From Pirellulaceae bacterium (GTDB taxonomy: Bacteria; Planctomycetota; Planctomycetia; Pirellulales; Pirellulaceae), in the NCBI GenBank assembly GCA_026004795.1, contig BPJV01000004.1:434001-498000 (forward strand): a stretch of 64,000 nucleotides of DNA, written 5' to 3'. The notes under the pieces are model-generated. The model was not told where the DNA came from. It did not search any database and saw only the letters and a list, made by a program, of their open reading frames with translations. Position numbers and translations under genes: made by a program. Shown in pieces: positions 18,996 to 32,986 of the stretch (position 1 is the stretch's first letter; each line of letters opens with the position of its first letter).

Positions 18996-20984
18996 ATGGT
19001 TACTGCGGCTTTCCGTCGCCTTCTTGACTCGTACATCCTGGCCATTATGAGCACCTCTACTGCATTGCCGCTTCCTCAAGATCGTCCACAGCCGACGCGG
19101 GAGACGGTGGAATCGATCATCGTCGCGTTCATACTCGCCTTCCTATTCCGAGCCTTCGTCGCCGAGGCGTTCGTCATTCCCACCGGTTCGATGGCCCCCA
19201 CGTTGATGGGCGCCCATAAAGATCTTTCCTGCGTCCACTGCGGCATGCCTTATCAGGCCAGCGCGAGTGCGGAGTTCGATTCCGACACCGGAGCACTGAC
19301 CAAGCAAAAGACGGTGGCCAGCATGTGTGCCAACTGTCGGGGGCTCAACAAATACGATTTTCGCCATAATCCCAATCACGCCACCTTCTCCGGTGACCGG
19401 ATCCTGGTCAGCAAATTCGACTACGTCTTCTCAGAGCCGGAGCGGTGGGATGTATTCGTCTTCAAATACCCGCGCGAAGCGAGGATGAACTACATCAAGC
19501 GCTTGGTGGGATTGCCGGGGGAGCGGTTATTGATACGTGAGGGCGACGTGTATCTCTCACCTCTGGAAGGGACGGCATCATGGACCATTGCCAGGAAGCC
19601 TCCTCATAAGATCCGCGCCATGCGGCAGATCGTCTTCGACACCGAGCACGTACCGGCAAAATTGATCCAAGCGGGGTGGCCAGGTTCGTGGCAGCCCTGG
19701 GGGGGCGACGTCGACGATCGCGCGTCGGGATGGGTGATAGAGAGGTCGCCCGATCGGTGGACCGCGCGGCTGCGACCTACACCGCAAACGACCTTCTTGC
19801 GCTATTTTCACAAGGTATTGGATGTACCTCATTGGGAAGCATTTATCGACGGTGGCACTCTGCCCGAGATATCCCCCTACCATTCGCGTCTGATCACCGA
19901 TTACCTGGCCTACAATTCGCGCATCACCGTTTCACCGGCCGATGCTATCTTCGACTGGAAAACACCGGCTTGGGGGCGATTCTTGCCTTCTTTTCTGGCC
20001 CCTGGACCGAAGTGGGTACTCTCCGAGGAGGTTCCTGAGGAGAAGACCGCGTTCGATGCGGCGGTGGAACGCGGCGTTCCCATGGCCTCTGGCTACGCCG
20101 CTTTGCCCGACGGCCTACACTGGGTCGGTGATCTATGTGGCCAATTCGATGTAGAGGTCGTTTCAGCGGAAGGAACGCTGGTGCTCGATCTCGTCGAATT
20201 CGGCATCCATTACCGCGTGGAGATTGATGTGGCCTCGGGTGAGGCCAAGATGGTAGCATTGGATGGCGCCCGAAAACTGCCCCTTTTCGAGGAGAATCCC
20301 GAGACGACGGGGCGCACGACGTTGCGCGGGCCGGGGCGATATTGCGTGGAGTTCGCCAACTTTGATGATAGTCTGGTCCTGTGGATCGACGGAGACGTGG
20401 TGCACTTCGACCATTCCACCGAGTACGACTCTCGGCAGTTTCGCCCTGGGGACGACCGTCGCCCCTACTGGTCGGAAGAAGATCCTCTGGATGCTGCACC
20501 GGTCGGTATCGGTGGCAGGAATATCGACATGACCGTGCGTCGCGCCCGAGTCTACCGTGACGTTTATTACATCGCCATCCAACGAATCGCTGGTTCCGGA
20601 CAGTATTCGGCGCTGAACTACACCGACTACGACATGCGTACCAACCTGGCAGCGCGCAACGATATCGTGCTCGACCCACAGGTCAGAGCGCAGTTGCATT
20701 CCGATGCCGAGGCAGTGTTCGCCGTGTATGGTCAACCGCAGTGGTGGGAACAAACGAAGCTGTTTTCACTGCGCGGTACGCGCGAGTTCGAGCTGCGTGA
20801 GGGAGAGTATTTTCCCATGGGAGACAATAGTGCAGAAAGTTCTGACGCGCGCGCTTGGGTCGGCCATCATTATGTAGAGCAACGCTTCCTCTTGGGCAAA
20901 GCACTGTTGATTTTTTGGCCGCACACGTGGAACACACCGGTACCCTACACTCCGAATCTTCAACGGATGAGGTTGATTCGCTAG
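18996..20984 (+). CDS. lepB: Signal peptidase I with zinc-ribbon-like and large extra domain
   Basis: Membrane serine protease that cleaves signal peptides from exported proteins. One N-terminal membrane helix (~39-58) is followed by the catalytic serine box (VIPTGSMAPTL, Ser65) and the catalytic lysine box (NYIKRLVGLPGE, Lys168). Box D is GDNSAESSDAR and box E is LLGKALLIFWP. At 662 residues it is over twice the usual length. Two insertions explain this: a cysteine pair region between Ser65 and the next box (Cys79/82 and Cys111/114, zinc-ribbon-like), and about 400 residues between the lysine box and box D. The latter includes a beta-rich segment resembling a LamG/DUF1080 sandwich (DDSLVLWIDGDVVHFDH). 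The start ATG 18996 has GGAG at a suitable distance; ATG 19047 is an alternative. LptB follows 36 bases downstream. Confidence 0.9.
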   Translation: MVTAAFRRLLDSYILAIMSTSTALPLPQDRPQPTRETVESIIVAFILAFLFRAFVAEAFVIPTGSMAPTLMGAHKDLSCVHCGMPYQASASAEFDSDTGALTKQKTVASMCANCRGLNKYDFRHNPNHATFSGDRILVSKFDYVFSEPERWDVFVFKYPREARMNYIKRLVGLPGERLLIREGDVYLSPLEGTASWTIARKPPHKIRAMRQIVFDTEHVPAKLIQAGWPGSWQPWGGDVDDRASGWVIERSPDRWTARLRPTPQTTFLRYFHKVLDVPHWEAFIDGGTLPEISPYHSRLITDYLAYNSRITVSPADAIFDWKTPAWGRFLPSFLAPGPKWVLSEEVPEEKTAFDAAVERGVPMASGYAALPDGLHWVGDLCGQFDVEVVSAEGTLVLDLVEFGIHYRVEIDVASGEAKMVALDGARKLPLFEENPETTGRTTLRGPGRYCVEFANFDDSLVLWIDGDVVHFDHSTEYDSRQFRPGDDRRPYWSEEDPLDAAPVGIGGRNIDMTVRRARVYRDVYYIAIQRIAGSGQYSALNYTDYDMRTNLAARNDIVLDPQVRAQLHSDAEAVFAVYGQPQWWEQTKLFSLRGTREFELREGEYFPMGDNSAESSDARAWVGHHYVEQRFLLGKALLIFWPHTWNTPVPYTPNLQRMRLIR

Positions 20985-22270: not shown

Positions 22271-23971
22271 TTGAGTTTTTTGGCTGGTGATAAACAATCG
22301 GACACCAATCCCGAGGATCAGGGATCACCGGGCGGGGCCGCGCGCGGACCACGGACCAGCCTCCCCGCAAGCTCGTCGCACGAAGCACACGCCGGTGCCC
22401 ATCTATCCGCCACCGATAGCGAGCCGCCTGCAACCAGAAAGGGAGAGGGTGGCAGGCCCGCGGACGCTAAGCGGGACCGCGTCCCCAGCTGGCTAGGAAT
22501 CCTCCTGTGGCGTCTCTTTCCCGAGGGGCACATCGAGCGTCATCGATTCCCGGCGGTCTTGGTGAGCTTCATTGTGCACCTGACTCTGCTGCTGGTGCTC
22601 GCCCTGCTCAGTCCCCGATGGGGACTACGCTCCGGACGCCCTCAAGCCGACTTGACCGTTGTTGGTCCAGCGGACCGGACGGCTCAGCCCTCGGAGCTAC
22701 AGATGATGGCTGAAAGTCCAGCGGCGCCTGATTTGCCAGATAGTGCGCTAGAGATGCGTTCGACGACTACTGTCAGCGACCGATCGGAGGATGCTGCCGA
22801 GGTGATTCGCCAGTTGCTCGACCAGAACGGAGAGCAGCCTGCGCAGCCACAATCGCTACATGCCTCTCTCTTCGATGCGGTCGATTTGCGGGTGGCCACG
22901 CGTTTCCGCTCCACGGGTATCGAGGGGCGAGCCGTGCAGCGGCGGCGGGACGTCGCTTTAGCACGGGGAGGGACTGTTGCCAGTGAAGCGGCCGTCGAGC
23001 GCGCCCTGGCGTGGCTCGCCGAACACCAGATGCCCAATGGTAGCTGGTCCTTGGTTCACGATCGCGGGCCATGCCAAGGACGCTGTGGTAATCCCGGATC
23101 ACCGCAACGTTTCGAACCGGCGGCGACCGGCTTGAGCTTGCTGGCATTCCTCGGGGCCGGTTATACCCATCGCGAGGGGAAGTACCGTGATACGGTCCGC
23201 AAAGGTATCTACTACTTATTGCAAGTAATGGAAGAGACACCTCTGGGAGGCAGCTTTCTCTATCAGTGCGATCGTGGCATGTACAACCACGGCATCGCTG
23301 CGTTTGCGTTGTGCGAAGCCTACCAGATGACGCACGATCCTGATTTGCAAAAGGCTGCTCAGGCAGCGATCAATTACAGCATCGCTGCTCAGCACTACCA
23401 TGGTTCCTGGGGCTACCTTCCCCAGCAACCAGGCGATCTGACCATCAGTGGATGGCACATCATGGCGCTGAAAAGCGCTCAGGCGGCGGAACTGGCCATT
23501 GCCGATACCACGATCATGCGCTTGGGGCACTTCCTGGATTCGCAACAAGACGACGATCCGGTGTTTTACGGCTATCGTGAGCGAGGTAAGAACCGCGTAT
23601 GCACGTCGATCGGCAACCTCGTTCGCTTGTTTTTGGGGCGATCGCCCAGCGATCCTCTAGCGCTGCAGGCTGCTGACTACATTCAGCGTCAGGGGCCTTC
23701 CTACGACGACATCTATTTCAACTACTATGCCACTCTGCTACTGTTCCATATGGGCGGTGGGCATTGGGAGCAATGGAACCCGCGCATGCGCGACTTTCTG
23801 ATCAGCACGCAGGCTACCCGCGGCCATGAGGCGGGAAGCTGGTACTTCGACAATCACTTCGGTAGTCAGGGAGGCCGATTGTATACCACCGCCATGGCCA
23901 CGATGACGTTAGAAATCTACTATCGATACTCTCCTCTGTACCAACAGACGGATGAGGACTTTCGTCTGTGA
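22271..23971 (+). CDS. Squalene-cyclase/prenyltransferase-like repeat protein with membrane anchor
   Basis: A 566-residue protein of unknown role. Residues 1-75 are polar and disordered-looking, then a single membrane helix (AVLVSFIVHLTLLLVLALL, ~90-110) probably anchors it. After a polar linker the C-terminal ~320 residues form the alpha-alpha barrel of the squalene cyclase/prenyltransferase superfamily, with repeats such as ERALAWLAEHQMPNGSWSLV, AATGLSLLAFLGAGYT and YLPQQPGDLTISGWHIMALK. The DxDD cyclase motif is not seen, so terpene cyclisation is unlikely. These proteins are common in planctomycetes and may act as binding domains. Only TTG 22271 and later GTG/TTG codons are available as starts before the membrane helix, so TTG is chosen. 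A glycosyltransferase follows 13 bases downstream. Confidence 0.8.
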   Translation: MSFLAGDKQSDTNPEDQGSPGGAARGPRTSLPASSSHEAHAGAHLSATDSEPPATRKGEGGRPADAKRDRVPSWLGILLWRLFPEGHIERHRFPAVLVSFIVHLTLLLVLALLSPRWGLRSGRPQADLTVVGPADRTAQPSELQMMAESPAAPDLPDSALEMRSTTTVSDRSEDAAEVIRQLLDQNGEQPAQPQSLHASLFDAVDLRVATRFRSTGIEGRAVQRRRDVALARGGTVASEAAVERALAWLAEHQMPNGSWSLVHDRGPCQGRCGNPGSPQRFEPAATGLSLLAFLGAGYTHREGKYRDTVRKGIYYLLQVMEETPLGGSFLYQCDRGMYNHGIAAFALCEAYQMTHDPDLQKAAQAAINYSIAAQHYHGSWGYLPQQPGDLTISGWHIMALKSAQAAELAIADTTIMRLGHFLDSQQDDDPVFYGYRERGKNRVCTSIGNLVRLFLGRSPSDPLALQAADYIQRQGPSYDDIYFNYYATLLLFHMGGGHWEQWNPRMRDFLISTQATRGHEAGSWYFDNHFGSQGGRLYTTAMATMTLEIYYRYSPLYQQTDEDFRL

Positions 23972-23984
23972 AGCTCCGCCATCG

Positions 23985-24692
23985 ATGATTTCCATTATCA
24001 CCCCAGCTCACAATGAAGCCGAATTCATTGAACCTGGTTTGCAGGCCGTCCAGGAGGCTGCCAAGCGGGTCGATGAGCCGGTAGAACACATCGTCGTGCT
24101 CAATCGCTGCACCGATGCGACGCAGGAGATTGCCCAACGTTATGGCGCCCGCCTGGTATTCGAGGACGCGAAGAACTTGAGCGTGATTCGCAACGCCGGC
24201 GCTCGGGCCGCGCAGGGGGAGATCCTGGTGACGATCGATGCCGACAGCCGCATGTCGCCGGGTATGTTAGCAGAAGTGCGTCGTAGGCTGGACAGTGGGC
24301 GATACATCGGTGGCGGCACGATGATCTACCCCGAACGATGGTCACTGGGGATCCTCTGCAGTGCCTTGGTCGTGGCACCGTACCTCCTCTGGCAAGGCGT
24401 TAGCTGTGGGATGTTCTGGTGCTTTAAACACGATTTCGAAGCCATCGGTGGATTCGATCCACGGTTGCTCAGTGTCGAAGATGTCGATTTCGGGCGCCGC
24501 CTTCGCGCCCTCGGCCGCCAACAGGGAAAGCGTTACGGCACGATCGTCAATGAGTACATCGTCACTTCGTGTCGCAAGTTCGACACGTTCGGCGATTGGT
24601 ATTTCGTGCGCCAACCGTGGACTGCCTATCGAATTATCCGTGGGGATCGCCAGGCCGTCGATTCCTACTTTTATGACCAACGCAATGCCTAG
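23985..24692 (+). CDS. Family 2 glycosyltransferase
   Basis: A 235-residue GT-A fold glycosyltransferase, likely adding a sugar to a lipid or polysaccharide at the inner face of the membrane. It begins with the nucleotide-binding motif MISIITPAHNEAEFI, continues with IVVLNRCTDATQEIA and NLSVIRNAGARAAQGEI, and has the metal-binding TIDADSRM (DxD-like). A hydrophobic stretch (SLGILCSALVVAPYLLWQ) could associate with the membrane, and the acceptor-side motif VEDVDFGRRL is present. The frame is open from an ATG at 23952 that would overlap the previous gene, but the conserved start of the fold is the ATG at 23985. It lies 13 bases after the cyclase-like gene, suggesting one transcript. Donor and acceptor unknown. 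Confidence 0.88.
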   Translation: MISIITPAHNEAEFIEPGLQAVQEAAKRVDEPVEHIVVLNRCTDATQEIAQRYGARLVFEDAKNLSVIRNAGARAAQGEILVTIDADSRMSPGMLAEVRRRLDSGRYIGGGTMIYPERWSLGILCSALVVAPYLLWQGVSCGMFWCFKHDFEAIGGFDPRLLSVEDVDFGRRLRALGRQQGKRYGTIVNEYIVTSCRKFDTFGDWYFVRQPWTAYRIIRGDRQAVDSYFYDQRNA

Positions 24693-24721: not shown

Positions 24722-25876
24722 TCACAAATCCAGCGAATCGAGTTGATCGAGCAGGTCATCGAGCTGGTCCGCATGACCGCCCTGCTGGCCATCCTGTTTC
24801 TTTTGTTGGATACGTTCGCGAATTCCCACCGTCATGCCTACCGCCTGACGACCGGCTAGCAACAGCTGCTCATCGCGTTCCCGTGCGGCGACGGCGATGG
24901 GATCCTCATCGGTTTCTGGCGCACCGAAGAGTTTAGAAAGGTCGATCTTCAATCCATCGTGCGTCACCGGCGCTCCGGCGATCGCCGGCGTTTTGTGTTG
25001 GGGAAAGATGATGGCGTTTTCCGGGCAGACCCGACTGCACGCCGGACAGCCCTTGCGACAATTGTCCGCCTGTTCAACCTTGATCGTCTCCTGACCATCG
25101 ATCCCGTAGACGCCGAACAAACAAAAGTCAATGCACTCCATGCAGTTGGTGCATCGGCTGTAATCGATCACCGGATACCAACGCCGCCCCGGATGTTCGT
25201 CGATCACCACCTTGCTCGTTTCGCCGAAAAGGGTGAACTCCTGGTCTGCCTGGTTGGCGGGGCTGCCGACGTACGTGTCGTTGGTCGGATTGGCCATGCG
25301 TGCCAGCAGGTCAAAGGTAAGCGGCGCGCGAGAGGATTCCGCATCCGCTGGCGGGGTTGGTGTGACCGCATGGTTGTCGCTGGACGCCGATCCGGCGGCT
25401 TGATCGGCCTCGACCAGCGAGCGGATGCGCTCGATCTCTGCCAGAAAATCAGCCACTTGGGTGCTAGCGCGAAAATCAAGACTGAAGATCCTCCGCGACG
25501 GTAACTGCAGGCCGTCCAAGACACGGGGAACCGCTCCGTCATCGTCGCCGCTCGGCTCTGGTTCCGATAGCTCTTCGTCTTCCTCGCCATACCTCAGTTC
25601 CGTGTCCCCCACTTGCCCTCGCACGCCGTTGCGGTCCAGCACCCAATGGGCAGCGCGGGCGAAAAGCCAACTAACCACCACCAAGTCGGTAGGGATAAGC
25701 CGCAGTTGGCGGTATGTTTCGCTGTGAGGCGGTAGATCGTAGAGGTGGGGGACCTGCAGGACGCCCACGTTCTCCAACATCGCGGCCCCCTCAGCGACTC
25801 CTTGCTCCAACTGACGTTTCTCCGGGTTCCGACTTTGCCCCGCCGAAATAACGACGGTAAGAGTTGGTCTAGGCAT
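24722..25876 (-). CDS. 2x[4Fe-4S] ferredoxin-domain protein of the radical SAM/lipoyl operon
   Basis: A 384-residue cytoplasmic iron-sulfur protein. The clusters are bound by Cys242, 245, 248 and 252 (RCTNCMECIDFC) and by Cys273, 277, 280 and 284 (CRKGCPACSRVCP), a two-cluster bacterial ferredoxin arrangement with an extended CxxxC spacing in the second set. Residues 1-150 form a domain I cannot assign (LENVGVLQVPHLYDLPPHSE), followed by an acidic linker and proline-rich segment. The C terminus ends in glutamine/aspartate-rich sequence. Its ATG overlaps the end of the lipoyl-protein gene by eight bases, implying translational coupling. By position it should supply or accept electrons for the radical SAM enzyme and/or the lipoyl protein; this is inference. 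Confidence 0.85.
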   Translation of the reverse strand: MPRPTLTVVISAGQSRNPEKRQLEQGVAEGAAMLENVGVLQVPHLYDLPPHSETYRQLRLIPTDLVVVSWLFARAAHWVLDRNGVRGQVGDTELRYGEEDEELSEPEPSGDDDGAVPRVLDGLQLPSRRIFSLDFRASTQVADFLAEIERIRSLVEADQAAGSASSDNHAVTPTPPADAESSRAPLTFDLLARMANPTNDTYVGSPANQADQEFTLFGETSKVVIDEHPGRRWYPVIDYSRCTNCMECIDFCLFGVYGIDGQETIKVEQADNCRKGCPACSRVCPENAIIFPQHKTPAIAGAPVTHDGLKIDLSKLFGAPETDEDPIAVAARERDEQLLLAGRQAVGMTVGIRERIQQKKQDGQQGGHADQLDDLLDQLDSLDL

Positions 25877-26330
25877 TGGCTTGTCCCTTGATGGTGCGCT
25901 GTGCGACTTCCCATGCCGAATCGAGGTGTTTCAGGTATTCCTCAGGCGATAACAGTTGCTCGGCGACACATTCCAATTCGAACATCCAGCCTGCTCCGTA
26001 CTTGTCCAGGTTGATCGCCGTGGGATCATCTAACAGGGATTCGTTTACTGCCGTCACTCGACCGGCCACCGGTGCGTATAAACTGCTTTCGGCTTTTTTG
26101 CTTTCGATCGACCCAATCTCCTGTTTGGAGGACAATTGCATGCCCTCCGCAATCTGCAGGTCGAAAAAGTAGACATCTTGCAACAACCGCACGGCGTACG
26201 CGGAAAGTCCGAAGCGCACGATGCCTGCGGTACGCTGCTGCCCCCACATATGATTCTTGGCGTACCGGCGGTCACGGGGAAACTCTGCAGCGTATTGGCC
26301 CATCATGAACACCAACGGGTCGGCGCTCAT
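25869..26330 (-). CDS. GcvH-like lipoyl-domain protein
   Basis: A 153-residue protein of the glycine-cleavage H family. The lipoyl-attachment hairpin is IGSIESKKAESSLYAPVAGR, placing the candidate lipoyl lysine at Lys79 (adjacent Lys78 is unusual). The surrounding pattern (GIVRFGLSAYAVRLLQDVYF, GAGWMFELE) follows GcvH closely, but the N-terminal ~25 residues (DPLVFMMGQYAAEFPRDRRY) differ from the usual GcvH opening. No gcvT, gcvP or lipoate-ligase gene is nearby; instead it is locked between a radical SAM gene (four-base ATGA overlap) and a ferredoxin gene (eight-base overlap). That context argues for a role other than glycine cleavage, as a swinging-arm carrier for another redox or sulfur chemistry. 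The annotation as GcvH-like is firm, the role is not. Confidence 0.85.
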   Translation of the reverse strand: MSADPLVFMMGQYAAEFPRDRRYAKNHMWGQQRTAGIVRFGLSAYAVRLLQDVYFFDLQIAEGMQLSSKQEIGSIESKKAESSLYAPVAGRVTAVNESLLDDPTAINLDKYGAGWMFELECVAEQLLSPEEYLKHLDSAWEVAQRTIKGQANA

Positions 26331-27631
26331 GTGTAACGTACTCCCTGGAACTGCGGTTCAAAGAAGGCCGGAAGCATGGCGTCGACGCGGAGCAACCCCT
26401 CCATGGTCAAGCGTACTTGATGGTCGTCGCGACGAACCCAACCTTCCTCTTCGTACTCCCGCCAGACAGCGTCATACTCCTCCCACACATCGACCGCGAA
26501 TTTGCTCAAGAAGTATTCGCGATCGACCCAGCCGCGTTTGAGCAACAGGATCAGCTCACGAATCATCCGCTGACGGTGCGTGGGCGTGTAGGCACGTCCC
26601 AAAGGAAGTCGTCCCTCGGCGAGCATCCCGATATACTGCTGCCATTCGGCGACATTCTGATAGTGCACCCCGTTGATATGCCCGAACGAAGCGATTCCAG
26701 TGGCCAACAGATCCGATCCTTGCCACAGATTGTCGCGATAACTGAAGCTGACTTTGTTGGGATCTTTGATCATCGTGTAGGCCGAACTTTGGACATAGCC
26801 TGCCTCGGCAAGTTGCTCGAAAGCATACCGCACCCACGCGCGCTTGGTGGGCCAATCGGCCACTGGCGATTCCTGATGCTGTTGGAGAATGCCCTCGGAA
26901 TAAACGGTATTGAACGGCAGCTCCATTTGGTAGATCGTCACCGACTCGGGCGACAATTCCAACGTCCGCCGCACATTCTCCCGCCAATTGTCCCAGGTTT
27001 CCCCCACCATGCCGGCGATCAAATCGATGTTGACGTTGGGAAAATCGGCGGCGACGATCCACTCCCAGGCGCGATACACCTCCTTCGATAGATGCGCCCG
27101 ACCATTCTCTTCGAGAATGGCATCGTTGAAATTCTCCACCCCAAGACTCAGACGGGTGACGCCCAGATCTTTCAGGGTATGCACCTTGGTTTCGCTGAGC
27201 GTGCCCGGTTCGCACTCGAAGGTCACCTCCTCGGCATGATCCCAATTGATATTCGCCCGCAAGCGATCGACCAGGCTGGTCAACTGCTTGGGAGAGAGAA
27301 AACTCGGTGTACCACCACCGAAGTAGACGAAGCGAAAGGGGCGACCACCCATGGCCGGTTGACGGCTAACCAGCTCGATTTCGCGACACAAGGACTGAAC
27401 GTACGTCTCGATCTCCGTCGAGTTCTTTCCGGTGAACACTTTGAAGTAGCAAAACTTGCATCGCTTGCGACAAAAAGGGATATGCAAGTAGAGACCGAGA
27501 GGTACCTCGCCCGGCTCGCTCGCCAAAGCTTTCTCCACGTCGGCAAGCAGTTCCCGTTTCCACTGCGAATAGGGCGGGTAGTTGGAGATGAAGTAGCTGC
27601 CAACCTCTGTCTTGGTCGCTTCTGTGCTCAT
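26327..27631 (-). CDS. HemW/HemN-like radical SAM enzyme
   Basis: A 434-residue radical SAM protein of the coproporphyrinogen III oxidase-like family. The [4Fe-4S]-SAM site is Cys54, Cys58 and Cys61 in HIPFCRKRCKFCYFK, followed by the glycine motif FVYFGGGTPSFL and the VTFECEPGTLSETK and RLSLGVENF strands typical of HemN/HemW. True HemN uses CxxxCxxCxC; here the residue after the third cysteine is Tyr-Phe, closer to HemW or HutW. Haem oxidase activity is therefore doubtful. The first ATG-proximal ribosome site (GAAGAAGA) supports ATG 27631; an upstream extension to 27667 is less likely. Its stop shares ATGA with the lipoyl-protein start, and the propeller gene ends 17 bases upstream, so it is the middle gene of a five-gene operon. 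Confidence 0.87.
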   Translation of the reverse strand: MSTEATKTEVGSYFISNYPPYSQWKRELLADVEKALASEPGEVPLGLYLHIPFCRKRCKFCYFKVFTGKNSTEIETYVQSLCREIELVSRQPAMGGRPFRFVYFGGGTPSFLSPKQLTSLVDRLRANINWDHAEEVTFECEPGTLSETKVHTLKDLGVTRLSLGVENFNDAILEENGRAHLSKEVYRAWEWIVAADFPNVNIDLIAGMVGETWDNWRENVRRTLELSPESVTIYQMELPFNTVYSEGILQQHQESPVADWPTKRAWVRYAFEQLAEAGYVQSSAYTMIKDPNKVSFSYRDNLWQGSDLLATGIASFGHINGVHYQNVAEWQQYIGMLAEGRLPLGRAYTPTHRQRMIRELILLLKRGWVDREYFLSKFAVDVWEEYDAVWREYEEEGWVRRDDHQVRLTMEGLLRVDAMLPAFFEPQFQGVRYT

Positions 27632-27648
27632 GATTCTTCTTCGCTTGT

Positions 27649-28854
27649 TTATTTCGCGCCAAAGCAAAACACGGTTCCGCGATCACTGGCCAGCACCAGC
27701 CGGCCGTCGGCTATCGCCGGCGATCCCAGGAATGCCCCTTTCACCTCGGTCATCCACACTTGGTCGCCCGTCTTCAAGTCTAACCGAATGATCCTTCCGT
27801 CGGCAGCCGCCACGATCACACTTTGGCCGGCGATGACGGGGGAGGCATCGGCGCGTTTACGCAGCACGTGGACCCACCGCACCGATCCGTCAGCAGTATT
27901 CAGGGCGAAAACCCGTTTGTGACGACTGGCCGCCACGAGGATCCCATCGGTCACCGCCGCCGAATTGCGAAATTCCTCGGACAACTGCGGATCGTGGAAT
28001 CGCCACAACGGCTCCCGCTTGCCCACTTCAAAACAAAATATTTCACCGGCATAAGTCGGTACATAGACGCGGTTATCCACAATCGCGGGCGTGCTACCGG
28101 TCGGCGCGTCGATGGGAATCGGCGCGTCGGCCGCTTGGCCATCGCGTACATCGACGATGTGCAGGAACGAATCGCAACCACCAAGAAACGTCTTCGTATC
28201 GGCCAGTGTTGGAGCACACCGTAGTTGGTCTCCCGTCTCGTACTTCCATCGCAACATCCCTTGATCGCGGCTGACGCAGTACAAGGTGCCGTTCTGCGAG
28301 GTGAACAAGATGGAATCCTGGAAGGCATTGGGGGACGCGTCGATCTCCATGTCCGCCTCGTAAACCCACATTTCCTCTCCGGTAGCCGGATCCAAAGCGT
28401 GGAACCTTCCGTCTTGATCGCCGAGGTAGAGCCGGCCATGGAAATATCCCGGTGTGGCGACAAATCCAGTGTCGAACTGCTTTTCCCAGCGAACTGCACC
28501 ATCGGCCAGCGCCAACGCCGCCACCCTCCCCTCGGTATCGGCGACATAAACCACCCCTTGCACGACGATGGGGCCCCCCTCAAAGCCCAAGCCACCGAAC
28601 TCTCGCTGCCACAGCAATTCCAGTCGATCAGGCAACGCCTCGTCCGTAGCCCCAGTGCCTTGCGGATTCCCCCCTGCCACGGGCCAGTCGTCCGCCCGAC
28701 CATGCGGCACCAGCGCGCCGAAAACGGCCGCAACGACCGCCAGCCACACTGGGACCACAAACACCGTGCGTCGACGCCTACCGCGGCACGCTCCACCACT
28801 ACGCGGCGCGGACCACCGGTCCCGACCGCAGTTTATAGCAATTCGTTGCATCAT
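27649..28854 (-). CDS. Secreted PQQ-like beta-propeller protein (operon member)
   Basis: A 401-residue exported propeller. The hydrophobic core of the signal peptide is VFVVPVWLAVVAAVFGALV after an arginine-rich N terminus. The mature protein begins DDWPVAGGNPQGTGAT and shows repeated PQQ-like blades: ALADGAVRWEKQF, DPATGEEMWVYEA, SRDQGMLRWKYETG, NTADGSVRWVHV and DLKTGDQVWMTE. It ends in a blade closing with FCFGAK. No catalytic motif is visible. The open frame extends to 28938, but its ATG at 28854 overlaps the dehydrogenase stop as ATGA, so I take that start (ATG 28863 is an alternative). It is the only exported member of the operon, which is odd beside cytoplasmic iron-sulfur enzymes. Confidence 0.85.
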   Translation of the reverse strand: MMQRIAINCGRDRWSAPRSGGACRGRRRRTVFVVPVWLAVVAAVFGALVPHGRADDWPVAGGNPQGTGATDEALPDRLELLWQREFGGLGFEGGPIVVQGVVYVADTEGRVAALALADGAVRWEKQFDTGFVATPGYFHGRLYLGDQDGRFHALDPATGEEMWVYEADMEIDASPNAFQDSILFTSQNGTLYCVSRDQGMLRWKYETGDQLRCAPTLADTKTFLGGCDSFLHIVDVRDGQAADAPIPIDAPTGSTPAIVDNRVYVPTYAGEIFCFEVGKREPLWRFHDPQLSEEFRNSAAVTDGILVAASRHKRVFALNTADGSVRWVHVLRKRADASPVIAGQSVIVAAADGRIIRLDLKTGDQVWMTEVKGAFLGSPAIADGRLVLASDRGTVFCFGAK

Positions 28855-30023
28855 GTCCTGCATTGTTCGAAGGTTCGGGAGTATAGATCTCGGAATTGAT
28901 CCGTCGTCAACGGCCGTGGATTGAAATTCCCGGTCCATTGTCGTGCCGCGTCGCTCGCCAATTGCTCCAAGTCATCCACGGCGACACCCAATCCATCGAG
29001 GCTCGTCTCCAAACCGGACAGCTCGATCAACCGACGCACATAACGGGCCAGCGACTCTACGGCCTCTCCACTATCACACTGCATTCCCAAAGGCGTATGG
29101 GCCACTTCGCGCCACAATTCCGCATAGTAATCTCCCACCACATGGCCATTGAAGCGAATCACCTCCGGCAACATCACGCCCACCGCCTGACCGTGGGTAA
29201 TACCGTAATGTGCTGTTAAAGGATTGGCCAAGGCATGCGCCGCTCCGAGCATACTCGTCTCGATAGCCAATCCCGAGAAGAACGCGCCCAATTGCATCAT
29301 GCCACGCGCTTCAATGTCTTGCCCGTCCTCGAGGACTCGCGGAAACCCTTGACTCAACAACCGCCATGCTTGACGACTGTAGCACTCGCTCAGGGCGTTG
29401 CGGCGACGGCAAACGTGAGATTCTACGGCATGGGAAATGGCATCGACGCCCGTCAATGCGGTGACTCGGGATGGTTGCGTAACCGTCAAATGTGGGTCGA
29501 GCAGGGCGATACGACAGGCGGCGCGTTGGTCACCGCAAGCCATCTTGGCATGCGTCTGAGGATGGCTGATCAGAGCAAAGGACTGCGCCTCACTGCCGGT
29601 GCCTGCAGTCGTCGGTACGGCGATCATGGGCAGCATGGGACCGGTCGCTTTGCCCACGCCCCAATAATCCTCCATCTGGCCGCCGCAGGAGTAAACGAAG
29701 TTGATTCCTTTGGCGCAGTCCATCGAGCTGCCGCCCCCCAATCCGACGAGCAAGTCCGGCTGGAATTGTTGCGCATGCTCGGTTCCGGCCTCCACGTCGT
29801 CACTCGTAGGGTTCTCATGAACGTCCAAGAAGGATTCGACAACCAAGCCAGCAGCGGTCAATGAGTCGACAGCCCGCTGATGGTGGCCAGCCGCCACCAC
29901 CCCTCGATCGCTGACCACGAGAACTCGCGTTCCACCCAATCCCGCCGCTAACTCACCCAAACGATCAATCCCATGGGGTTGGAAAACCAAACGCGTCCGG
30001 TGCTGAAAATCAATCGCATCCAT
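28851..30023 (-). CDS. Iron-containing (group III) alcohol dehydrogenase
   Basis: A 390-residue cytoplasmic NAD(P)-dependent alcohol dehydrogenase of the iron-activated family. The nucleotide-binding region has VGLGGGSSMDCAKGINF, and AVPTTAGTGSEAQSFA follows. The metal-site region includes TALTGVDAISHAVES, GAAHALANPLTA and GITHGQAVGVMLP, carrying the conserved Asp and His ligands. Start ATG at 30023 opens directly into the conserved N terminus (FQFKPHGIDRL-like). It is the first gene of the minus-strand operon, with the next gene overlapping its stop. The substrate could be an aldehyde, an alcohol or a polyol; nothing in the sequence decides. An isolated gene encoding a haem protein lies 118 bases upstream on the same strand. 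Confidence 0.9.
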   Translation of the reverse strand: MDAIDFQHRTRLVFQPHGIDRLGELAAGLGGTRVLVVSDRGVVAAGHHQRAVDSLTAAGLVVESFLDVHENPTSDDVEAGTEHAQQFQPDLLVGLGGGSSMDCAKGINFVYSCGGQMEDYWGVGKATGPMLPMIAVPTTAGTGSEAQSFALISHPQTHAKMACGDQRAACRIALLDPHLTVTQPSRVTALTGVDAISHAVESHVCRRRNALSECYSRQAWRLLSQGFPRVLEDGQDIEARGMMQLGAFFSGLAIETSMLGAAHALANPLTAHYGITHGQAVGVMLPEVIRFNGHVVGDYYAELWREVAHTPLGMQCDSGEAVESLARYVRRLIELSGLETSLDGLGVAVDDLEQLASDAARQWTGNFNPRPLTTDQFRDLYSRTFEQCRT

Positions 30024-30141: not shown

Positions 30142-31491
30142 TCAGGGAGTCACGAATCCATCAGGCGTACCCGGGATCAAGTCATTTTCGGCCGATCCCG
30201 GCGGTTGTTGCAAGCACAAGAAAGCCAACAAATCGAGGAACTCCTGTTCGGTCATCTGTTGCTCCACTCCCTCCGGCATCAGACTTTTCGTACTCAACTT
30301 CATCATCTCGATCTCATCGCGGGGAAACTCGATCACCTTTCCACCCTGTACTTTCAAACGCACGTAGTCGTCATCCTCCTCAACCAGTAACCCGGTGACG
30401 ACTTCACCATCTAGGGTTAACACCGTTCTCGCTTGGAAGGCTTCGCCGATCACCAAACTTGGGTCCAAAATATTGGAAACCAACTGTTCCAAACTTCCCC
30501 GTCCATTGCGGTCAATCGGAGGCCCGACCTCGTATCCCACTCCATGCAATCGATGGCATTGAGAGCAGACGCGCACGTAGACGGCCTGTCCTCGGGTGAC
30601 CGATCCGGTGGCACCGGAGGCGATACGGCGCAATGTTTGCTGAACCAGTTCTCGACGCGAACGATCGTCCTGCGTTCGGATCACGCCCCAGATGCCGCGG
30701 ATGGCTGCTGCCATCTGCGCATCCTCCACGGCCGACCATTTTCGCAGTTGGTTGGGGTTCACCAGATCCCTATCCGCCGGGTGATCGGCCAACAACGCCA
30801 ACAATCCGGCCATCGTTTCCCGCTTCGAGGTCATGGGTTCGATCACCGCAGTCTTTGTGCCTGCTGGCAGTCGAGCCCAGTTGGCTTTCAACCAGCTTGT
30901 AGTCTGCTCGGGCCGTTGCTCGATGCCGGCCAGCAGCATCGCCTGCACCGCGTCGGCGATCTCCGGGGTGGACTGCCGGCCAATCCATTGGTCAAGCATC
31001 GCCAGGGCATCATCCACACAGCGAATGAACCAGATCTGCCCCAAATAGTCGGGGACGGAATGCCCCTGTTCAACCAAACGCTCGATCGCTTCTCCAGCCG
31101 TCGAGCACTGATTGCCCGTCTCGCTGATTGTCAACAGCACCGCCACGGCCACACGGTATCGCGGGTCCGCCGCCCCACCGGTGCTGACCAACAATTCCAT
31201 CTGTTCGCGCAACGGAGAGAGGTCCGTGGCCGCCTGCGCTAGCTGGCGTCGCTGCACGGCCGTTCTCAAGATGCGCTCTAGCGTCGTTGCGCTGCTGGCC
31301 GGATTGGTGTCCCACAACAGTTTGGCAATGCGCACAGCGGCAGAAAAACTAACCGATCGCTCTTGCTCCTCTTGCCCCCTGCCATGGGGAGCAAGGTTGA
31401 AGGGCCAGCCGCCGCAGGAGAGAACCAGGGCGATCAACCCCATGGTTGTCACCCGTGATAGGGGAAAAAATACGCGAACATTTCGGGTCAT
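30142..31491 (-). CDS. Exported PVC-type haem-binding protein
   Basis: A 449-residue secreted protein. The signal segment (VTTMGLIALVLSCGGW) follows a basic N terminus. Residues ~40-300 are helical and repeat-like (RRELVQQTLRRIASG at the end). A c-type haem site CSQCHRLHG near residue 309 starts the C-terminal module that characterises the PVC superfamily: EVGPPIDRNGRGSLEQLVSN, DPSLVIGEAFQARTV, LDGEVVTGLLVEEDDDYVRL and the closing MTEQEFLDLLAFL. It often accompanies membrane-bound dehydrogenase propellers; here the ADH-propeller operon lies directly downstream on the same strand. ATG 31491 is chosen because GAGG precedes it and the signal peptide begins there; the longer frame to 31629 is not supported. 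Confidence 0.86.
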   Translation of the reverse strand: MTRNVRVFFPLSRVTTMGLIALVLSCGGWPFNLAPHGRGQEEQERSVSFSAAVRIAKLLWDTNPASSATTLERILRTAVQRRQLAQAATDLSPLREQMELLVSTGGAADPRYRVAVAVLLTISETGNQCSTAGEAIERLVEQGHSVPDYLGQIWFIRCVDDALAMLDQWIGRQSTPEIADAVQAMLLAGIEQRPEQTTSWLKANWARLPAGTKTAVIEPMTSKRETMAGLLALLADHPADRDLVNPNQLRKWSAVEDAQMAAAIRGIWGVIRTQDDRSRRELVQQTLRRIASGATGSVTRGQAVYVRVCSQCHRLHGVGYEVGPPIDRNGRGSLEQLVSNILDPSLVIGEAFQARTVLTLDGEVVTGLLVEEDDDYVRLKVQGGKVIEFPRDEIEMMKLSTKSLMPEGVEQQMTEQEFLDLLAFLCLQQPPGSAENDLIPGTPDGFVTP

Positions 31492-31729
31492 AGACAGCCT
31501 CGCATTAGACGAACGCGCAGCAGGCTGACCTGTCTGCGGTGGGAAACAACCAAGAGGTGCAGGTCCTCTCGTTTGGGGGATAATAATCGGTGGGGACCGT
31601 TGGATGTCAGCGGCAGGATGGTATACCATACCTATTATGCGTTGAGATTCGGCGGGACGCTACCTGCTGGCATTGTCGCAGTCAACGATACCTGGCGAAA
31701 GATCGTTGCCGGCAAGAAGGAGGGTTGGT

Positions 31730-32986
31730 ATGGGGACTTCTATCCACTACCGTTGGTTTTCGTGCGTCTGTGGGACCATCCTCATTCTCGGCGTTCCTGT
31801 GAGCCCCCATCGTGCGTTATGGGCACAGGATGACAAACTGGAATTCAGTGAGCCGCAGAATGTGCGTTCGGCCGTTTTCGCCGGAGGCTGCTTCTGGTGC
31901 ACGGAAACCGATTTCGAGAAGCTACCTGGGGTGCACCAAGTCGTTTCCGGATATACCGGTGGACGTTCCACCAATCCCACCTACGAAACATATGCCGCTA
32001 GCGGCCATCGGGAAGCGGTCTTCGTCATCTACGACCCGCAGCAGATCACCTTCTCTGGCTTGGTCGAGTACTTCCTCAAACATATCGATCCAACCGACGG
32101 CGAGGGCCAGTTTCGGGACCGCGGCCCGCAGTACCGACCGGCCATCTATTATGCCGATCCCACCGAAAAGGCCTCAGCGGTCAAGGTGATGCAAGCCATT
32201 GAAAAAATGAAGGTCTTCTCCGGCAAACGCTTGCATGTGGCCATCGAACCACGCCAGCCATTTTATCCTGCCGAAGATTATCACCAGGACTTCCACACCA
32301 AGAACCCGTTGAAATACCAGGCATACCGTGCCCAATCGGGTCGTGATCCGTTTCTGTGGCAGCATTGGGGACCGCGAGCCGCGCAATTGGAGTTGGCCGA
32401 AGCATTTCCGCCGGGAACCCAGGCGGCAGCCAGCCTCGAAGAAACGTTGCGCCGCGCCCACGCGAAATGGGCGCAGTTCAAGAAGCCCAGTCCTCTCGAG
32501 TTGAAACGGCGGTTGAATCCGATGCAATACAAAGTTACCCAGGAGGACGATACGGAGCCTGCCTTCCGTAACGCCTATTGGAACAACAAACGCGAGGGGA
32601 TTTATATCGACGTCGTGTCCGGGGAGCCTCTGTTCAGTTCTCTCGACAAGTACGACTCGGGAACCGGCTGGCCGTCCTTTGTCAAACCCATTACGCCGGA
32701 TGCAGTTACTTACCACGCAGACCGCCACTTATTCTATGTACGTACGGAGGTCCGTTCACGTTTCGCCGATTCGCATCTGGGCCATGTCTTCGACGATGGA
32801 CCACCGGAACGAGGAGGAAAACGCTATTGCATGAATTCGGCAGCGTTGCGTTTCATTCCCAAGGAGCAACTTGCCGATGAGGGCTACGCCGAGTTTCTCA
32901 AGTTGTTCACCGAAAGAGATCTCACCGCAGATCCGATGGCCGCGGGCTTGCCGACCTCGTTACCGCCACCGGATCAGCGACCATGA
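31730..32986 (+). CDS. msrAB: Secreted MsrA-MsrB methionine sulfoxide reductase fusion
   Basis: Bifunctional enzyme repairing both methionine-S- and R-sulfoxide in exported proteins. The 418-residue product has a signal segment ([16 protein letters not shown]), then MsrA with the catalytic [21 protein letters not shown] and the [13 protein letters not shown] motif. A linker of ~60 residues leads to MsrB from residue ~285: [24 protein letters not shown] and the catalytic cysteine in [14 protein letters not shown]. The MsrB part lacks the zinc-binding cysteine pairs found in the most common MsrB form. AAGGAGGG six bases before ATG 31730 fixes the start, though the frame extends to 31673. It faces away from the haem gene and is probably monocistronic. 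Confidence 0.93.

Follow-up and report, generated by a model that had tools for sequence, protein, structure and literature searches.

GcvH-type lipoyl proteins that act outside glycine cleavage have been described in sulfur oxidation, where two strictly conserved cysteines serve as the criterion for LbpA, some archaeal LbpAs excepted (PMC6067878, available part of the text). DUF116 fused to a polyprenyl synthetase was noted earlier, Psta_0175 from Pirellula staleyi being a named example, and DUF116 was suggested to take part in electron transfer (PMC5898192, available part). Four planctomycete isolates were reported to have terpenoid clusters that include polyprenyl synthetases and terpene cyclases, and these clusters were read as carotenoid- or hopanoid-forming (PMC8303584, available part). 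The locus analyzed here lies in a 64,000-nucleotide stretch of the genome of a Pirellulaceae bacterium (contig BPJV01000004.1, positions 434,001 to 498,000; hereafter the window). It is a five-gene operon for an iron-containing alcohol dehydrogenase (ADH), a PQQ-like beta-propeller protein, a radical S-adenosylmethionine (SAM) enzyme (RSAM), a GcvH-type lipoyl-domain protein (LIP) and a ferredoxin (FER).

The operon was read as the junction of two modules of one planctomycete pathway to a cyclised isoprenoid or an isoprenoid-bearing lipid, and this reading is given even odds (about 0.5). Module A would comprise LIP, FER, a CobW-type GTPase (CobW), a second radical SAM enzyme, a DUF116-polyprenyl diphosphate synthase fusion (the synthase), a class II squalene-cyclase-like cyclase (the cyclase) and a small prenyltransferase-like protein (the toroid). 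Module B would comprise RSAM, ADH and the propeller protein, joined elsewhere by AMP-ligase-like and aldehyde-dehydrogenase-like (ALDH-like) proteins, a flavoenzyme, a glycosyltransferase and a LolD-type ATP-binding cassette (ABC) ATPase. The synthase is the same DUF116-polyprenyl synthetase fusion as Psta_0175, but in the available text of PMC5898192 that fusion is unlinked to LIP, FER, the cyclase or radical SAM enzymes. The clusters of PMC8303584 likewise combine polyprenyl synthetases with terpene cyclases, and the isolates include Adhaeretor mobilis, which is locus L144 here; their reading is, however, carotenoid or hopanoid, and the available text mentions neither a lipoyl protein nor a ferredoxin. 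No published description of the present gene set was found in the open-licence full texts of PubMed Central (PMC), and a word search of the main text of PMC10332631 returned neither planctomycetes nor DUF116; PMC8692599 contributed nothing specific. What appears new is the gene set as a whole, lipoyl protein included, each part coming from a known superfamily; a polyprenyl synthase and a cyclase on their own would most likely pass for a terpenoid cluster of the ordinary kind (compare PMC8303584, available part).

Gene order and co-occurring partners

All five genes were read directly from the minus strand. ADH and the propeller gene overlap by ATGA (28854-28851), a gap of 17 bases separates the propeller gene from the RSAM ATG at 27631, RSAM and LIP overlap by ATGA (26330-26327), and LIP and FER share eight bases (25869-25876); the operon that an earlier note on this DNA had described, overlaps included, is real. 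The propeller gene most likely runs from 28854 to 27649, because a longer open reading frame (ORF) from 28938 would overlap ADH. For RSAM, a longer TTG ORF from 27667 is an alternative.

Species genomes were scanned with the FER alignment, at least 532 relatives were obtained, and the best 80 were kept, of which 76 name a planctomycete group in their titles and 4 say only 'bacterium'. The order LIP-FER was found at 55 of the 80 related loci, RSAM-LIP-FER in order and strand at 51, all five genes in order at 32, and a seven-gene order with AMP-ligase-like and ALDH-like genes upstream of ADH at 24, all of these counts being lower bounds because contig ends truncate several of the loci. The exact 4-base RSAM/LIP overlap was present in 28 of the 54 loci holding both genes, again a lower bound, since some LIP starts were set at the longest ORF. 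FER stood on the opposite strand in three loci (L128, L133 and L143), and one genome (G274) keeps LIP and RSAM together with FER on another contig. The five-gene arrangement is more than chance, and the RSAM-LIP-FER trio is conserved beyond this genome, so that the lack of conservation named by the earlier note as a refuting outcome did not occur. AMP-ligase-like and ALDH-like genes were not found in the window; a cytochrome-c-domain protein (30142-31629, minus strand) lies directly upstream of ADH, in the place occupied by those genes in many relatives.

Co-occurrence was scored across 294 Planctomycetota genomes. FER was found in 69 and the synthase in 70 (two partial matches, G277 and G098, included), and 68 genomes held both. 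The second radical SAM enzyme was found in 59 genomes at E ≤ 1e-90, every one inside the FER set (59/69), and in 91 at the looser E ≤ 1e-25. The cyclase was present in 40/40 FER genomes and 0/40 FER-less genomes, in a hand-chosen sample of mostly better assemblies that took 40 from the 69 genomes with FER and 40 from the 225 without it, the latter including the two with synthase but no FER. Across many families, FER, synthase and cyclase accompany one another almost one to one, a pattern that is strong even though Fisher p-values of co-occurrence overstate independence, the genomes being related and many assemblies incomplete. Synthase genes were also seen outside the cluster, at 8622-10469 of L085 (genome G087) and, as a second copy, at 7554-9470 of L086 (genome G105); G087 keeps RSAM, and no FER, cyclase, CobW or second radical SAM enzyme was detected in it.

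CobW was found in 59 of the 294 genomes (51 with FER). RSAM was found in 60 at E ≤ 1e-60, and the co-occurrence set was reduced to 59 by dropping a weaker match (G275); 48 of these have FER. Inside the 69 FER genomes, CobW and RSAM were both present in 48, both absent in 18 and in disagreement in 3 (agreement 66/69), and LIP and CobW agreed in 65/69. LIP was scored from matches at E ≤ 1e-34 together with matches beside FER or RSAM; G277 was included (its LIP lies ~3 kb off), and G076 was scored as lacking LIP though its CobW adjoins FER. The most constant companions of LIP were FER, CobW and the isoprenoid gene set.

In several distant loci, L058 and L044 among them, LIP, CobW, FerN (a small separate protein homologous to the N-domain of FER), FER, the second radical SAM enzyme, the synthase, the toroid and the cyclase are contiguous; in other distant loci the order of module A varies slightly or parts are lacking. 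RSAM of distant families lies mostly beside ADH and often the propeller gene, and this unit is flanked by AMP-ligase-like and ALDH-like genes, a flavoenzyme of geranylgeranyl-reductase/halogenase-like type, a GT4 glycosyltransferase and a LolD-type ABC ATPase. ADH and propeller look like partners of RSAM itself, because they also stand beside it in FER-less genomes: among 11 FER-less RSAM regions, ADH adjoins in 7 and the propeller gene in 6, the other four being two contigs of ~4 kb and two regions with neither gene. Clusters around distant-family RSAM genes (L208-L227) also hold an unknown protein of 185 aa, with a thioesterase and a PaaK/FlxY-like ligase in addition at L217, and are apparently a lipid or natural-product pathway in their own right.

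Modules A and B meet in Pirellulales. At L122, the AMP-ligase, ALDH, ADH, RSAM, LIP, FER, second radical SAM, cyclase, synthase and flavoenzyme genes are contiguous; CobW and toroid gave no matches there, and no propeller gene lies between ADH and RSAM. The two modules lying side by side at L122 count as evidence that A and B form one pathway, with the caution that RSAM also exists without LIP.

The window genome (5.59 Mb, 96.8% complete) holds all module A partners in dispersed form, with the synthase and cyclase on contig 4 at ~628-633 kb, CobW on contig 4 at 70 kb, the second radical SAM enzyme on contig 11 and the toroid on contig 2. DUF116 occurs once in this genome, inside the synthase fusion. 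A squalene/phytoene synthase (SQS_PSY, PF00494) was undetected in the window genome and in 17 other FER genomes; two of the SQS_PSY-less genomes (G057 and G200) are at 99% completeness. Because 18 of the 69 FER genomes are without detected SQS_PSY, squalene is unlikely as a general substrate if the cyclase reaction is the same everywhere; the fused synthase would be the natural source of the cyclase substrate.

Comparison of the proteins with known families

LIP shares with GcvH its fold family, the E..KA motif and the attachment lysine. In the alignment, Lys79 shares a column with the attachment lysine of this genome's GcvH, and it is invariant in 59/59 LIP sequences, which bears out its earlier identification. 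LIP appears built to carry lipoic acid, and lipoylation at Lys79 is predicted. Unlike GcvH, LIP has an extra C-terminal segment and falls below the cut-offs of the curated GcvH models (TIGR00527, 86.1 against a cut-off of 115.85; PRK01202, 100.4 against 117), both of which are passed by the genome's real GcvH. The one other LIP/GcvH match of the genome lies within a run of gcvT, gcvH, gcvPA and gcvPB, each above its own curated cut-off; the earlier note had asked whether such a separate set exists. In a tree of 27 LIP and 17 GcvH sequences (14 of the 17 GcvH genes near gcvP or gcvT homologues), the two groups were split with support of 100/99. As the earlier note had observed, the surroundings of LIP differ too: BLAST searches of the window with the gcv genes of this genome turned up neither a gcvT nor a gcvP homologue. 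That LIP is the sole GcvH of the genome, which the note had named as counting against its proposal, was ruled out by the separate gcvT-H-PA-PB set and the tree split. Judged from sequence, LIP is not the glycine-cleavage protein of this genome.

LIP resembles LbpA as a GcvH-type lipoyl protein outside glycine cleavage (PMC6067878, available part). It lacks, however, the two LbpA cysteines (at most 8 of 59 sequences have a cysteine in any window-aligned column), and its identified partners are isoprenoid and radical SAM genes. The candidate assignment of LIP to LbpA and the heterodisulfide-reductase-like (sHdr) systems was rejected on this cysteine test, and the kinship with LbpA of sulfur oxidation that had been suggested for LIP thus lacks one of its defining features. 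Genes for shdr and sLpl/LipS were not among the families identified beside LIP, no hidden Markov model scan having been aimed at them. A link of LIP with cysteine desulfurase was also set aside, as a homologue directly adjoined LIP at just two of the searched loci.

RSAM has the CX3CX2C motif of HemN, HemW and HutW and matches these families over most of its length, HutW best, but it stays below every cut-off (HutW, 196 bits against 400; STM4012, 191; HemN, 168 against 325; HemW, 164 against 205), and its HemN_C match is just under cut-off. A separate gene in the genome passes the HemW cut-off at 250 bits, by which RSAM was ruled out as the genome's HemW. From the low scores and this separate HemW, RSAM was taken as a subfamily of its own; its phylum-wide group, unlike the known families, lies mostly beside ADH. 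The earlier label 'HemW-like radical SAM' is right in naming a radical SAM enzyme of the HemN superfamily but too narrow in pointing to HemW.

Ferredoxin matches in FER fall within residues 233-291 (Fer4_6, 27.9 bits against a cut-off of 25), and dicluster ferredoxin models score below cut-off. The eight cluster cysteines (C242, C245, C248, C252 and C273, C277, C280, C284) are invariant in 49 sequences, and the two-cluster ferredoxin proposed earlier holds. The FER profile matched no PDB sequence at E ≤ 0.01; with the FER model, Foldseek returned weak flavodoxin- or receiver-type folds among the best 50 of 935 rows. A FerN-domain profile, built from 14 sequences, matched all 31 FER loci examined, fused or separate. 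Stand-alone FerN (L058:9615-9968 and L062:9651-10049) has four cysteines (CxC..C..C) that are invariant in 6 sequences; the N-domain of the window FER has no cysteine, and the four N-domain cysteines are kept in 0 of 80 related FER proteins. Together with a 'AACYPRAVKWLF' stretch, the FerN cysteines are reminiscent of the N-terminus of HdrA, a likeness that no search confirmed. No HdrA match to the FER N-domain or FerN appeared in Foldseek (best 50 of 935 rows), the PDB profile search, NCBIfam or Pfam, and HdrA matches to FER cover the ferredoxin half only; HdrA kinship of these domains was kept as a lead only.

The partner cyclase has the DXDD motif and SQHop_cyclase domains of the squalene-hopene cyclases, with VPDxDDT kept in 14/14 (VPDADDT in the window genome copy). 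It differs from them in scoring far below their cut-offs and in being present where no squalene/phytoene synthase was detected. The synthase keeps its first aspartate-rich motif, HDDIED, in the window genome copy also, and its predicted structure was poor (62.9). Inspection of the toroid by eye found no cysteine or histidine kept at the positions of the zinc ligands of protein prenyltransferases.

Proposed pathway and competing explanations

In the proposed pathway, the synthase would make a regular polyprenyl diphosphate, which the cyclase would fold via protonation at its DXDD motif, and the two radical SAM enzymes would functionalise the cyclised product or an attached chain. FER would supply low-potential electrons; lipoylated LIP would act as a dithiol or as a carrier, trading electrons or an intermediate held as a thioester with FER and its partners; and ADH with its neighbours would perform the alcohol and aldehyde steps. 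We infer that modules A and B serve one product, that this product is a cyclised isoprenoid, and the catalytic assignments themselves. LIP may relay as a dithiol between FER and some partner, or it may carry an acyl or other intermediate in thioester linkage. Its coupling to RSAM and, in Pirellulales, to the AMP-ligase-like gene favours the carrier, and its constant pairing with FER and CobW favours the relay. Lipoic acid has no known role in isoprenoid- or lipid-building pathways of this kind. A lipoyl carrier for isoprenoid or lipid synthesis is put forward tentatively, with doubt outweighing confidence; together with a ferredoxin, CobW and two radical SAM enzymes, it would work on a polyprenyl chain cyclised by a relative of squalene cyclase, in some genomes without squalene. 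Of the new lipoyl-linked pathway claimed in the earlier note, the novelty seems likely, as nothing of the kind appeared in the open-licence literature searched, but the context is more probably isoprenoid or lipid synthesis than a self-contained redox trio.

If this pathway exists, lipoic acid would have a new kind of job beside those in 2-oxoacid dehydrogenases, in glycine cleavage and in sHdr sulfur oxidation. One pathway would then unite DUF116 with the squalene-cyclase-like proteins of planctomycetes, and about a quarter of the sampled Planctomycetota genomes (the 69/294 with FER) would make a membrane or secreted terpenoid as yet uncharacterised. If the product is a cyclised regular polyprenoid, planctomycetes would be a candidate biological source of fossil tricyclic polyprenoids, whose origin is not known to have been settled. 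FER is present in the cultured Blastopirellula marina DSM 3645 and Rhodopirellula baltica, which opens the pathway to testing.

Several observations weigh against the isoprenoid pathway. Functions were assigned by family resemblance alone, and lipoylation of LIP within the pathway is likewise a prediction. The cyclase scored 113 bits (cut-off 323) and 82 bits (cut-off 431) against squalene-hopene cyclase models, and the window genome copy 122 (cut-off 323). The predicted FER structure was confident in the N-domain and poor in the ferredoxin half (mean predicted local distance difference test score, pLDDT, 69), and its fold search with Foldseek gave no match at E ≤ 0.001. Squalene/phytoene synthase genes occur in 51 of the 69 FER genomes, where squalene is thus possible, and the incomplete assembly (96.8%) could hide one in the window genome. 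CobW is absent from 18, LIP from 18 and RSAM from 21 of the 69 FER genomes, and 16 lack all three alike, many of these being incomplete assemblies; a minimal version of the pathway may exist in which the lipoyl part is dispensable or replaced. The overlap of LIP with FER is partly by construction, because LIP was partly counted by adjoining FER or RSAM. RSAM occurs without FER in 11/294 genomes, with no LIP beside it there, and CobW without FER in 8, so that the two modules may make different things.

The translational coupling of RSAM and LIP (4-base overlap in 28/54), the trio order in 51/80 loci and the genome that keeps LIP and RSAM together with FER on another contig would also suit a trio that works on its own, with RSAM modifying or using the lipoyl arm, electrons coming from FER and no link to isoprenoids. 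This is unlikely, since distant families place LIP with CobW, FER and isoprenoid genes and RSAM usually elsewhere, mostly with ADH; the 11 FER-less genomes with RSAM and no adjoining LIP also leave the earlier claim that RSAM acts on the lipoyl arm unsupported. A tetrapyrrole pathway is slightly less probable still. The substrate of both radical SAM enzymes would then be a porphyrin or a ring like that of haem, its metal would be handled by CobW, and the synthase with the geranylgeranyl-reductase-like flavoenzyme would build and trim a prenyl tail of the kind found in haem A or chlorophyll. The closest curated families do include tetrapyrrole enzymes, namely HutW, HemN and HemW for RSAM and NirJ, AhbC and AhbD for the second radical SAM enzyme, the GTPase belongs to the CobW family, and the flavoenzyme weakly matches BchP/ChlP, but the radical SAM and flavoenzyme matches all stay far under their cut-offs. 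Such chemistry offers no obvious place for a cyclase whose DXDD motif is intact, and no methyltransferase, chelatase or synthase of that kind was seen among the cluster genes scanned, which were part of the neighbours.

Planctomycetes are reported to make hopanoids, and terpenoid clusters of planctomycete isolates have been read as carotenoid- or hopanoid-forming (PMC8303584, available part), so a divergent squalene-hopene cyclase acting on ordinary squalene, with LIP, FER and the radical SAM enzymes decorating a hopanoid, was considered. The squalene/phytoene synthase genes in 51/69 FER genomes agree with this, but the cyclase reaches 82 bits against a hopene-cyclase cut-off of 431, 18 of the 69 genomes (the window's included) are without a detected squalene/phytoene synthase, and the partner found in 68/69 is a polyprenyl synthase; the hopanoid explanation is regarded as improbable. 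The same low standing is given to an sHdr-LbpA-like sulfur transfer, in which the lipoyl arm of LIP carries sulfur and FER is a stripped-down HdrA taking electrons. LIP is GcvH-like, as is LbpA (PMC6067878, available part), and a cysteine-desulfurase-like gene adjoins LIP in two distant loci. The four invariant FerN cysteines and the 'AACYPRAVKWLF' stretch, reminiscent of HdrA in a way that no search confirmed, would point in this direction too. Against these stand the absence of the two strict LbpA cysteines from the aligned columns of 59 LIP sequences, the lack of HdrA matches to FerN in PDB sequences, NCBIfam and Pfam, the FER N-domain, which has no cysteine in the window protein and keeps four in 0 of 80 related proteins, and the isoprenoid and radical SAM families identified beside LIP. 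That LIP is a spare glycine-cleavage H protein in an incidental neighbourhood is hardly credible: the GCV_H domain and the lysine are present, but a complete gcvT-H-PA-PB set exists elsewhere, LIP lies below the GcvH cut-offs in a clade of its own, and its neighbourhood is conserved in many relatives.

Coordinates and neighbouring genes

Table 1. Positions of the operon genes and their motifs in the window.
Feature	Position	Strand	Basis
ADH, iron-containing alcohol dehydrogenase	28851..30023	-	Fe-ADH 154 bits; no NCBIfam equivalog above cut-off
PQQ-like beta-propeller protein, apparently exported	27649..28854	-	PQQ_2 138.7 bits; signal-like hydrophobic N-terminus by eye
RSAM, HemN-superfamily radical SAM enzyme, own subfamily	26327..27631	-	Radical_SAM match; ATG at 27631
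CX3CX2C cluster motif (CRKRCKFC) of RSAM	27449..27472	-	3 Cys invariant, alignments of 4 and 51 sequences
LIP, GcvH-type lipoyl-domain protein, 153 aa	25869..26330	-	GCV_H 84.9 bits; tree clade apart from GcvH
Codon of LIP Lys79, predicted lipoyl attachment lysine	26094..26096	-	invariant alignment column
FER, N-terminal alpha/beta domain + 2[4Fe-4S] ferredoxin domain, 384 aa	24722..25876	-	Fer4 Pfam matches
Codons of FER cluster cysteines C242-C284 (eight)	25025..25153	-	sequence + invariant columns

A long protein on the plus strand (22271-23971) with squalene-cyclase-like toroid repeats (weak Pfam matches) adjoins the operon and a GT2 glycosyltransferase (23952-24692); when it was used as a BLAST query, no gene in the maps of related loci had it as best match. 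Further away, a 662-aa protein at 18996-20984 (plus strand) resembles signal peptidase I with long insertions by eye, and a MsrA-MsrB methionine sulfoxide reductase fusion is encoded at 31673-32986 (plus strand).

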